Of a stretch of 64,000 bases of DNA, positions 39,632 through 58,243 are shown piece after piece. Source of the stretch: Sedimenticola thiotaurini (GTDB lineage Bacteria > Pseudomonadota > Gammaproteobacteria > Chromatiales > Chromatiaceae). The notes beneath the pieces are model-generated. The model searched no databases. It worked only from the letters and a program-made list of their open reading frames with translations, and had not been told where the DNA came from. Each line of letters opens with the position of its first letter. Position 1 is the stretch's first letter. Location: the NCBI RefSeq assembly GCF_001007875.1, contig NZ_CP011412.1, positions 1,240,001-1,304,000 on the forward strand. The letters run 5' to 3'. A program made the translations under genes and the position numbers.

Positions 39632-39837
39632 TACAGGCCTCTCCGTTACTCCACTGCGGGAGTGCATTCTAAAGACAATGCAGGACGGAAAAAGACTTGC
39701 GAGTGATGGGAATGCCTTACCCGGGCATGGCCACAGCGGGACTGCATACAAGCACAGGTTTTTCCGACCTGCGTGGATGCGTCAGCTAACGGAAGACCGC
39801 TCTACTGAATACCCCGTTCGGTAGAAATGCGACGCGT

Positions 39838-40012
39838 GAAAGGCAGGTTTCCTGACTTGCAGATCATTACCCGGTATCGCCTTCCCAATCATCGGACCAG
39901 TGGCGTAATGAGACCGGACTACTTGCTTACAGTTGCGAGGACAGTCAAGGAGTTGCCTGGATGAGGCGCACCTTAGTTCCCTATTAACCCGTAGCGGGCA
40001 CCTTTCAGAGGC
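39838..40012 (-). promoter_or_regulatory. cobalamin riboswitch
   Basis: On the minus strand the conserved elements appear in order: AATAGGGAACTAAGGTG (GGGAA at 39981-39977), the B12 box GCCACTGG at 39904-39897, GGGAAGGCG, and the closing AAGTCAGGAAACCTGCCT. This is the standard AdoCbl class-I layout. It should repress btuB when cobalamin is plentiful. The 200 bases between aptamer and start have no obvious terminator, so control of translation is more likely. Confidence 0.93.
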
Positions 40013-40020
40013 GGCCATTT

Positions 40021-56400: not shown

Positions 56401-57585
56401 CTACCCGCCCAAACCGGTGGCCAGGTCACGCTGGATATCCTCGATATCCTCCAACCCCACCGCAATACGCAACAGCCCCTCTTCGATGCCGGCCGAACGG
56501 CGCTCCTCATCTGTAAGCTTGCCGTGGGTGGTGGTGGCCGGGTGGGTAATGGTGGTCTTGGTATCCCCCAGGTTGGCGGTAATGGAGATCATCCGGGTAG
56601 CATCGATCAGGCGCCAGGCCTGCTCTCGCCCACCCTTCACCACAAACGAGAGCATGCCACCGGCGGCCTTCTGCTGACGCTGCGCCAGGTCGTGTTGCGG
56701 GTGGCTGGGGAGTCCGGGGTAATAGACCCGTTCAACCGCCGCCTGCTGCTCCAGCCAGCGGGCCAGGGCCAGTGCATTCTCGGAATGGGCCAGCATACGC
56801 AGACGCAGGGTCTCCAATCCTTTCAGGAACACCCAGGCATTGAATGGACTCATGGTCGGGCCCGCAGTACGCAGGAAACCGAACACCTCCTCCCCCACCC
56901 GCTTGGCATCGCCCACTACGGCACCGCCGACACAACGCCCCTGCCCATCCAGGTACTTGGTGGCGGAATGAATCACGATATCCGCCCCCAACGCCAACGG
57001 TTGCTGCAGGGCCGGAGTGCAGAAACAGTTGTCCACCACCAGCAACAGACCATGGGAGTGGGCCAGATCCGCCAGGACCGCTATATCGCCCAGTTCAGTG
57101 AGTGGATTGGACGGGGTCTCGGCGTACAGCAGACGGGTATTGGGACCAATCGCCGCCTCCCAGGCGGCCAGATCGTTCAACGGTACATAACTGGTCGTGA
57201 TGCCCATTCTGGACAGGTACTTGTTGAACAGGGCATTGGTGGCGCCGAAAATGCTGCGGGATGAGACGATGTGATCTCCCGATTGCAACAGCGCCATGCA
57301 GGTGGAGAGAATTGCCGACATACCGGAGGCGGTGGCAACACAGGCTTCGCCCCCTTCCAGGGCGGCCAGACGCTGTTCAAAACAGGTCACGGTCGGATTG
57401 GTGAAACGGGAGTAGATGTTACCCGGCTCATCACCGCTGAATCGGGCCGCCGCCTCGGCAGCACTCTGAAACACAAAGCTGGAGGTGGTGAATATGGGTT
57501 CGGAATGTTCGCCCTCGGCGGTGCGGTTGTGTCCGGCCCTGATCGCTCGTGTCGCCAAGCCCCACTCGTCTTTCGCCTGTGCCAT
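56401..57585 (-). CDS. metZ: O-succinylhomoserine sulfhydrylase
   Basis: The 394-residue PLP enzyme of the Cys/Met family makes homocysteine directly from O-succinylhomoserine and sulfide. The PLP lysine lies in HSATKYLDGQGR. The ARAGHNRTAEGEHSEPIFTTSS start (residues 16-37, in parts) and length match MetZ rather than MetB. Its leader carries a SAM-II-like riboswitch and a terminator/antiterminator pair, so expression should fall when SAM is abundant. The methyltransferase gene follows in the same operon. Confidence 0.9.
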   Translation of the reverse strand: MAQAKDEWGLATRAIRAGHNRTAEGEHSEPIFTTSSFVFQSAAEAAARFSGDEPGNIYSRFTNPTVTCFEQRLAALEGGEACVATASGMSAILSTCMALLQSGDHIVSSRSIFGATNALFNKYLSRMGITTSYVPLNDLAAWEAAIGPNTRLLYAETPSNPLTELGDIAVLADLAHSHGLLLVVDNCFCTPALQQPLALGADIVIHSATKYLDGQGRCVGGAVVGDAKRVGEEVFGFLRTAGPTMSPFNAWVFLKGLETLRLRMLAHSENALALARWLEQQAAVERVYYPGLPSHPQHDLAQRQQKAAGGMLSFVVKGGREQAWRLIDATRMISITANLGDTKTTITHPATTTHGKLTDEERRSAGIEEGLLRIAVGLEDIEDIQRDLATGLGG

Positions 57586-57602
57586 TTAGGGATACCTTTA
57601 CT

Positions 57603-57659
57603 GGAATAAAAAAACAGCGGGCATGAAAAAACCCGCCTGGCCGCACAGCCAAAGCAGGT
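57603..57659 (-). terminator. metZ leader terminator with competing antiterminator
   Basis: On the minus strand GCGGG (57636-57632) and CCCGC (57621-57617) form a terminator followed by TGTTTTTTTATT. An upstream ACCTGCTT (57659-57652) can instead pair with AGGCGGGT (57638-57631), blocking the terminator stem. The U-run ends about 20 bases before the metZ start. Confidence 0.7.
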
Positions 57660-57718
57660 GTTCCTCGCTTTAGCCGCATTTTTATAGCGCCCGCAATCTG
57701 AGATAAATCGGCGCTCCC
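57660..57718 (-). promoter_or_regulatory. SAM-II-like riboswitch upstream of metZ
   Basis: On the minus strand a perfect 6-bp helix AGCGCC/GGCGCT (57715-57710 with 57691-57686) encloses a loop starting GATTTAT and containing ATTGC. It is followed by ATAAAAATG and GCTAAAGC (57674-57667). Order, helix length and the conserved loop and 3' segment match my recollection of the SAM-II pseudoknot aptamer. SAM-II is best known from alphaproteobacteria. Position before a methionine gene and a terminator supports the call. Confidence 0.75.
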
Positions 57719-57772
57719 GCAAAGACTAGGCTGTCCGCTGGAGAGTGTCAAGCTGTTGCAGATGGGTCGGGG

Positions 57773-58243
57773 TCACTCAAACAGTTCGAGATATTCGCCA
57801 TAGCCCTCCGCCTCCAGTGATTCCCGCGGAATAAAGCGCAGTGAGGCAGAATTGATACAGTAACGCAACCCGGTGGGGGCCGGGCCATCTGGGAACAGGT
57901 GACCAAGATGGGAGTCGCCGTTTTTGCTGCGTACCTCGATGCGCTCCATGAACAGCTTATTATCCTTGCGTTCCACGATATGGGCCGGATCCACCGGTCG
58001 GGTGAAACTGGGCCAACCGGTGCCGGAATCAAACTTGTCCCGGGAAGAGAACAGCGGCTCGCCACTCACCACGTCCACATAGAGTCCGTCCCGTTTTTCA
58101 TCCCAGAACTCATTCTGGAACGGCCGTTCGGTTCCCTCCTGCTGAGTCACCTGGTACTGGAGATCGGTCAGGCGTCCGCGCAGATCGTCATCCGTGGGGC
58201 GTTCAAAGGGGGATGTTTTTTTGCTCGGGTTTTCACTGGACAT
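57773..58243 (-). CDS. msrB: methionine-R-sulfoxide reductase B
   Basis: The 156-residue enzyme repairs methionine-R-sulfoxide. The catalytic C129 is in [13 protein letters not shown], with SGTGWPSF and HLGHLFPDG also present. The two CxxC pairs that bind structural zinc in many MsrB proteins are missing, so it is the zinc-free form. A resolving cysteine is not obvious, since C129 is the only cysteine. Confidence 0.94.

Follow-up and report, generated by a model that had tools for sequence, protein, structure and literature searches.

A divergent SAM-II-type leader RNA upstream of metZ, very probably a transcriptional OFF switch, with relatives before many methionine genes

Between msrB (57773–58243; TIGR00357) and metZ in the window (the whole stretch of 64,000 nucleotides that we analysed) lies a leader on the minus strand. 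The regulated gene, metZ (56401–57585, minus strand), encodes an O-succinylhomoserine sulfhydrylase of 394 amino acids, and its match to NF006003 at 708 bits (cut-off 522) confirms the target named by a sequence-only reading of this DNA, which had also placed the element correctly at 57603–57718. The whole element occupies 57715–57626 of the minus strand, with the promoter on one side and metZ on the other. The putative promoter combines a −35 hexamer that is the exact consensus (TTGACA, 57746–57751, minus strand) with a −10 hexamer, TAGTCT (57723–57728, minus strand), which lies 17 bases further on and 7 bases before helix P1. Only three of the six bases of TAGTCT agree with TATAAT. It is the commonest −10 sequence at that place among the leaders we collected (10 leaders), and at the same place 57 of 95 leaders score 9 or more out of 12 as promoters, versus 12 of 1900 shuffled sequences. 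A general promoter scan of the leader detected no promoter. Elsewhere in the window, a Cobalamin riboswitch (RF00174, 108.5 bits) occupies 39825–40020 of the minus strand.

The aptamer comprises 55 bases (57715–57661; all features of the leader lie on the minus strand). Its helix P1 consists of six pairs between AGCGCC (57710–57715) and GGCGCU (57686–57691), and is backed by the pairing and covariation counts given below. P1 is followed by the core loop L1, GAUUUA (57704–57709), of which GAUUU is also found in the consensus of RF00521, the Rfam family SAM_alpha, or SAM-II; the loop sequence GATTTA...ATTGC spans 57709–57693. It contains CUC (57700–57702), the 5′ strand of a distal pseudoknot helix whose 3′ strand is GAG (57664–57666), and the core pseudoknot strand UUGC (57693–57696). 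Linker L3 (AUAAAAAUGCG, 57675–57685), which holds an additional hairpin in Burkholderia- and Legionella-type relatives, leads to the core GCUAA (57670–57674), the partner of UUGC, with its U unpaired; we take this register, UUGC/GC(U)AA, to be that of the SAM-II crystal structure. The core letters of SAM-II (GAUUU, UUGC and GCUAAA) are thus all present, and the SAM-II-like layout of the earlier reading stands, with its six-pair P1, its GATTTA...ATTGC loop and its segment GCTAAAGC (57674–57667) in place.

Downstream, the leader can form two mutually exclusive structures. The 5′ strand of an antiterminator (GCGGCUAAAGC-G-AGG, 57663–57677) overlaps the 3′ strand of the aptamer, and its 3′ strand (CCUGCUUUGGCUGU, 57645–57658) overlaps the 5′ arm of a terminator hairpin (57630–57659, −16.5 kcal/mol) with a run of six U read in the sequence at 57626–57631. 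An antiterminator of eight pairs (GCUAAAGC/GCUUUGGC) with a competing terminator had already been proposed; we recovered both, the eight pairs extending to 14 (57677–57663/57658–57645) at −20.2 kcal/mol, a value that none of 200 shuffled arms equalled. The minimum-energy fold of the leader contains P1 and the antiterminator, and because the antiterminator outweighs the terminator, the ligand-free default would be read-through. A second hairpin (57616–57637, −12.2 kcal/mol, a stability matched by none of 200 shuffles) pairs the 3′ arm of the terminator with GCCCGC past the U-run and is followed by seven U (57614–57608). By eye, L030 and L038, both near relatives, lack this second U-run, and a hairpin between the 3′ arm and the bases past the U-run reached 0.05 in only 21 of 87 leaders.

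Across the leaders the terminator is general and the antiterminator is less so. A hairpin of −9 kcal/mol or stabler followed by a U-run was present in 87 of 95 leaders. The same criterion picked out 53 of 475 sequences shuffled by dinucleotide and 3 of the 94 stretches taken 400 bases downstream. Pairing between the 3′ strand of the aptamer and the 5′ arm of the terminator passed at 0.05 in 58 of these 87 leaders (47 at 0.01), with a mean over the 87 of −13.1 kcal/mol versus −7.0 kcal/mol for shuffled arms. The remaining 29 leaders, including all seven metX leaders covered, failed this test at 0.05, as did several leaders from outside the class. The antiterminator detail is therefore not general, and the switch must be wired differently in the metX leaders and in several leaders outside the class.

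How firmly the element can be assigned to SAM-II depends on the model used. When the leader and its flanks (57560–57780, 221 bases) were searched against 4227 Rfam families with permissive filters, RF00521 was the sole SAM-riboswitch family to match at E ≤ 10, scoring 25.5 bits (E 4.7e-4) across the full length of the model, below its gathering score of 36 bits. At gathering scores Rfam reported no SAM-II in the window, and RF00521 found nothing over the whole genome at E ≤ 0.001. A score near 25 bits is not specific, because two loci in which our script found no core score higher (L026, 26.5 bits; L041, 26.2 bits). In the 147 genomes of the window's order RF00521 matched 78 at E ≤ 1 and exceeded its cut-off in 3, and because it also matched 7 of 14 control genomes at E ≤ 1, it counts only at better scores. 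The sequences fetched with RF00521 revealed one strongly conserved leader. We built two models of such leaders. R2 consists of 26 leaders that share no rank below class with the window and that were found by way of another Rfam family, RF02424; it takes 26 of the 30 RF02424 leaders, leaving out L056 (identical to L054), L069, L071 and L079. In the window R2 has a single match, the element itself (66.8 bits, E 1.3e-16), with a runner-up at 7.7 bits (E 1.6). The covariance-model check proposed with the sequence-only reading thus gave a sub-threshold score with RF00521 and a firm match with R2. We rejected a chance resemblance, given this E value from a model built without the window's order. The second model, R1, gives the leader 74.3 bits, a score that is partly circular because R1 contains the window; R2 is the clean test.

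R1 was built from an alignment (A1) of 65 of 68 distinct leaders, in which the window replaced the identical L030, L034 and L066 were shortened manually at their ends, and L069, L071 and L079 were omitted for their long L3. The A1 leaders had been chosen by a pattern that fixes part of the inner P1 pairs, which favours P1. ATTT, TTGC and GCTAAA, and with them both strands of the core pseudoknot, are invariant in 65 of 65 leaders; the first G of GAUUUA is A in some. The pseudoknotted SAM-II structure leaves 94.7% of cells in A1 paired, versus 39.2–56.5% in six versions slid along the alignment. In the same alignment, 26 cells changed on both sides (shuffled mean 12.1), and the covariation score was 0.119 as against 0.075, a value that 0 of 500 shuffles reached. 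Three pairs showed double changes, a number not above shuffles (305 of 500 reach three); double changes occurred in two of the three pairs of the distal helix. Of the long distal P2a helix we tested three pairs in A1, and the third formed in 41 of the 65 leaders.

We recounted the pairs in 108 rows from 95 loci, using ATTT, TTGC and GCTAA alone as anchors and excluding pattern-fetched loci, whose inclusion had biased an earlier count of 159 rows: a pattern fixing complementary P1 arms had supplied 80 of at least 120 stretches. In the recount, which keeps nine rows with fewer than four of the five inner P1 pairs (some rows being out of register), five of the six P1 pairs exceeded all 500 shuffles. 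The outer pair was formed in 69.4% of rows (best shuffle 56.5%), P1.2 in 96.3% (86.1%), P1.4 in 92.6% (88.9%), P1.5 in 98.1% (91.7%; CG 98, GC 5 and UA 3) and P1.6 in 98.1% (94.4%), whereas P1.3 was not above shuffles (91.7% versus 94.4%). The models that fetched these loci score P1, so that its covariation is favoured. Distal pairs 2 (84.3% versus 69.4% in the best shuffle) and 3 (66.7% versus 60.2%) also exceeded shuffles; distal pair 1 did not, owing to too little variation. P1.5 is U-A in Burkholderia- and Legionella-type leaders and C-G in most others. Those leaders were fetched with a pattern fixing both P1 arms, so that the change exists and its frequency cannot be read from them; the same U-A double change occurs independently of that pattern in L098, L101 and L110. 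The core pseudoknot pairs UUGC/GC(U)AA never vary, so they gain no proof from covariation and rest on the known structure. By nested folding, the aptamer was no stabler than shuffles (z 0.62) and the whole leader slightly stabler (z −1.38; 18 of 200 as stable), values that leave out the pseudoknot because such folds omit pseudoknots. At the level of sequence, these comparisons demonstrate the anatomy and conservation of the leader, the covariation of P1 and the distal helix, the exclusive pairings, the promoter-like site and the target gene.

R1 has two matches in the window's own genome, one before metZ and one before metK (C1:2116841–2116895, plus strand). In the extracted metK locus the leader lies at L031 1542–1596, and an SAH riboswitch (RF01057) follows metK at L031 2915–2993. 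At E ≤ 1e-4, R1 matched 46 of the 147 order genomes, 32 of which had supplied R1 sequences, and had no match in the other 101; in the class it matched 178 of 369 genomes and 130 of 272 genera (27 of the 178 being training genomes), and at a looser E ≤ 0.01 it matched 101 of 398 phylum genomes. RF00521 exceeded its cut-off in 30 of the 369 class genomes and reached E ≤ 1e-4 in 94. The sequence-only reading had called SAM-II rarely reported in gammaproteobacteria, and this agrees with its description as sporadic there, perhaps by horizontal transfer, by Barrick and Breaker (2007, PMC2258182); the element itself, at 178 of 369 class genomes, is common.

Judged by the best-matching reference protein, the gene that follows is metZ in 112 of 179 leaders, metK in 24, metN in 14, metX in 8, metF in 2 and metY in 2, 162 in all, and none of these in 17; the tallied loci are the best matches of our searches, not a random sample. 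Ten of 189 loci went uncounted for lack of a core by pattern (L026, L041, L045–L050, L100 and L130), of which L026, L041 and L045–L050 are RF00521 matches of 20.9–26.5 bits. L077 was tallied as 'other', though its start reads as metK, and the metN reference protein scores 371.9 bits with TIGR02314, below the cut-off of 499.7. The repressor MetJ was not found in the window's genome and occurred in 1 of 171 class genomes, itself without an R1 match; one genome is too few to contrast MetJ with SAM-II.

Some leaders depart from this arrangement. In Legionella and its kin (L122, L141, L152, L159, L173, L176–L178, L180, L182 and L189), an aptamer with an AT-rich L3, which is a hairpin in those folded, and by eye without a terminator precedes an ABC ATPase resembling the one in L122, whose nearest family is MetN (TIGR02314, 371.9 bits, again below 499.7). 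A leader at L074 1530–1585 (plus strand), in which the script found no terminator, stands before an open frame that by eye is LysR/CysB-like. Tandem copies occur at L002, L008, L017, L021, L053, L054, L056, L067 and L236–L256, where the first aptamer has a terminator and the second lies near the start codon, by eye without one; genome G392 has ten matches forming five tandem pairs, and G503 has six matches. By our test, seven of the first eight of these loci have no methionine gene next to them. Seven of ten proteins near tandem copies matched nothing in Pfam, the others being one MoxR-type AAA protein, one HD domain and one weak ACT domain; PADLOC gave two weak matches, both to one protein, and NCBIfam matched none of the three proteins searched. 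In four loci of another class of the same phylum (L083, L086, L089 and L097), an R1-type leader with a terminator is followed by a second SAM-II-like motif near the start codon, and the next gene by best match is metZ-type in L086 and metY-type in L089 and L097. Tandem SAM-II riboswitches with mixed platforms have been described (PMC9481103).

Two RNAs described under other names appear to belong with these leaders. Named Burkholderia, Paraburkholderia and Caballeronia metZ leaders carry the core and a small extra hairpin in L3. In Burkholderia-type metZ leaders RF02424, the Rfam entry 'Burkholderia sRNA Bp2_Cand287_SIPHT', scores 199.7 bits (L133 5710–5882), 141.3 bits (L113 638–815) and 101.6 bits (L112 3898–4104), above its cut-off of 70, and in two Cupriavidus loci it scores 50.9 and 39.1 bits. 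In all five RF02424 lies on the strand opposite the core; in a separate search of seven such loci it matched five, also on the opposite strand. None of the 30 loci fetched with RF02424 (L051–L080) reaches the cut-off. In the eight loci searched together, the first five above among them and three from Legionellaceae, RF00521 found nothing at E ≤ 0.5. Bp2_Cand287 had already been placed upstream of methionine genes and proposed as a cis element (PMC3521395). The other RNA is the metXZ element of Leyn et al. (2014), who reported SAM_alpha only from Rhizobiales and Rhodobacterales and a novel pseudoknotted RNA with terminators before betaproteobacterial metX or metZ (PMC4239095). Both that element and the window's stand before metX or metZ and have a terminator, and the published pseudoknot, between regions 1–4 and 2–6, is alike; the one was published as novel, and we equate the two from its description. 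The metX leaders of L099 and L102–L108, recovered by R1, agree with this description and come from genomes that, judging by the gene, would be betaproteobacterial. Gene and layout agree, and the metXZ element as described is very likely a SAM-II-type RNA. RF02424 and, by inference, metXZ look like the same RNA as the metZ leader. The former, filed as an sRNA gene, covers the same DNA segment in Burkholderia-type leaders from the opposite strand and has no match in the window's leader. In the open-access literature that we searched we found no paper linking RF02424 or metXZ to SAM-II.

By its core, pseudoknot, covariation and gene context, all read from sequence, the metZ leader is a divergent, homologous variant of SAM-II with a short distal helix, and the copy in the window is typical of this variant. 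SAM-II as first described (RF00521; Corbino et al. 2005, PMC1273637) likewise combines P1 with an H-type pseudoknot and the core GAUUU/UUGC/GCUAAA, and lies before methionine genes, in many cases with putative intrinsic terminators. The window's element differs in scoring below the RF00521 cut-off and in having about three CUC/GAG pairs in place of a GGCC-rich helix, and elements of its type are widespread in GTDB Gammaproteobacteria and also precede metK and metN. A short distal helix has precedent: P2a has 5 bp in 60% of SAM-II RNAs and only two pairs in the crystallised metX SAM-II (PMC6061858). In Sinorhizobium meliloti, metZ has a SAM-II aptamer with a predicted SAM-dependent terminator, and its RNA levels are SAM-dependent (PMC9373788); that leader is alphaproteobacterial, and we liken it to the window's from its description, not from an alignment. 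Because Sinorhizobium already provides a metZ leader that joins SAM-II to a predicted terminator, we regard the window's element as a divergent variant of a known riboswitch type.

We consider it highly probable that the metZ leader is a SAM-II-type riboswitch acting as an OFF switch of transcription; its RNA very probably senses S-adenosylmethionine (SAM) and halts transcription when SAM is plentiful. We infer three things: the start of transcription and, from the SAM-II family, the ligand and the direction of switching. The RNA would start immediately upstream of P1. At low SAM the 3′ strand of the aptamer (GCGGCUAAAGC-AGG) would pair with CCUGCUUUGGCUGU and occupy the terminator's 5′ arm, letting polymerase read through into metZ. 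At high SAM the ligand would stabilise the pseudoknot (UUGC/GC(U)AA plus CUC/GAG), which would sequester GCUAA(AGC)GAG and take GCUAAAGCGAG from the antiterminator; the freed CCUGCUUUGGC could then form the terminator with its six U, and metZ would not be transcribed.

Several other readings deserve weighing against this switch. The aptamer might bind SAM and act chiefly on translation or RNA stability beside a constitutive terminator, as in S. meliloti metA, where no SAM control is predicted for the terminator that follows the SAM-II aptamer and a GAGG serves translation at a distance (PMC9373788). GAGG is also present in the window's pseudoknot strand (57666–57663), 77 bases before the metZ start, and 29 of 87 leaders have no significant antiterminator; the window's own antiterminator, however, with 14 pairs at −20.2 kcal/mol, overlaps aptamer and terminator alike, and we think this reading improbable. 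A different pathway ligand for the pseudoknot, for instance SAH or methionine, is more improbable still: the subgroup does diverge from the tested alphaproteobacterial RNAs and lacks the GGCC-rich distal helix that RF00521 has in its consensus, yet it retains the core letters AUUU, UUGC and GCUAAA, and SAH has a riboswitch of its own after metK in the window's genome (RF01057, 53.8 bits). Moreover, repression by SAM is classic for metK, metZ, metX and metN.

The label of RF02424 (Bp2_287) would instead make the locus a trans-acting or antisense small RNA and not a metZ riboswitch. RF02424 does match the opposite strand of such leaders, and an RT-PCR product was reported from B. pseudomallei, but oligo(dT) served as the primer in that RT-PCR, and its authors propose a methionine-gene cis element (PMC3521395). 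The SAM-II core stands opposite RF02424 in all 30 loci fetched with it, a methionine gene lies downstream on the core strand in 24 of the 30 (genes were searched on that strand), the U-run and promoter agree with the metZ strand, and RF02424 has no match to the window's leader on either strand at E ≤ 10. We rejected an opposite-strand sRNA on the position of the core in the relatives' loci and give it very little probability. Equally slight is the chance that the leader is a SAM-V riboswitch, a structurally similar class that shares the binding core and likewise has a short distal helix; SAM-V is translational and has a P3 (PMC6061858), whereas the window's leader has a terminator, and we rejected this class because the SAM_V model has no match there at E ≤ 10.

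If the metZ leader is a SAM-II-type transcription switch, its mechanism is ordinary for the class, and the news is its breadth and two mis-filed orphans. SAM-II has been placed in alpha-, beta- and gammaproteobacteria (Meyer 2009, PMC2704228), terminators have been noted in alpha- and betaproteobacteria (Barrick and Breaker 2007, PMC2258182), and PMC12452182, PMC13273304 and PMC5352136 gave nothing to the contrary. We think it likely that one SAM-II-type switch is a widespread SAM sensor of methionine genes in beta- and gammaproteobacteria without MetJ, that models of alphaproteobacterial origin miss most of its copies, and that metXZ and Bp2_287, the latter filed on the wrong strand in Rfam, are the same RNA. 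If so, Rfam could replace the wrong-strand sRNA entry, and an orphan regulatory RNA would gain a ligand. The window itself would be annotated as carrying a SAM-repressed metZ. More broadly, the element provides a candidate SAM sensor and transcription switch for about half of the sampled genera of the class (130 of 272), and would account for the control of metZ, metK, metX and metN in lineages without MetJ.
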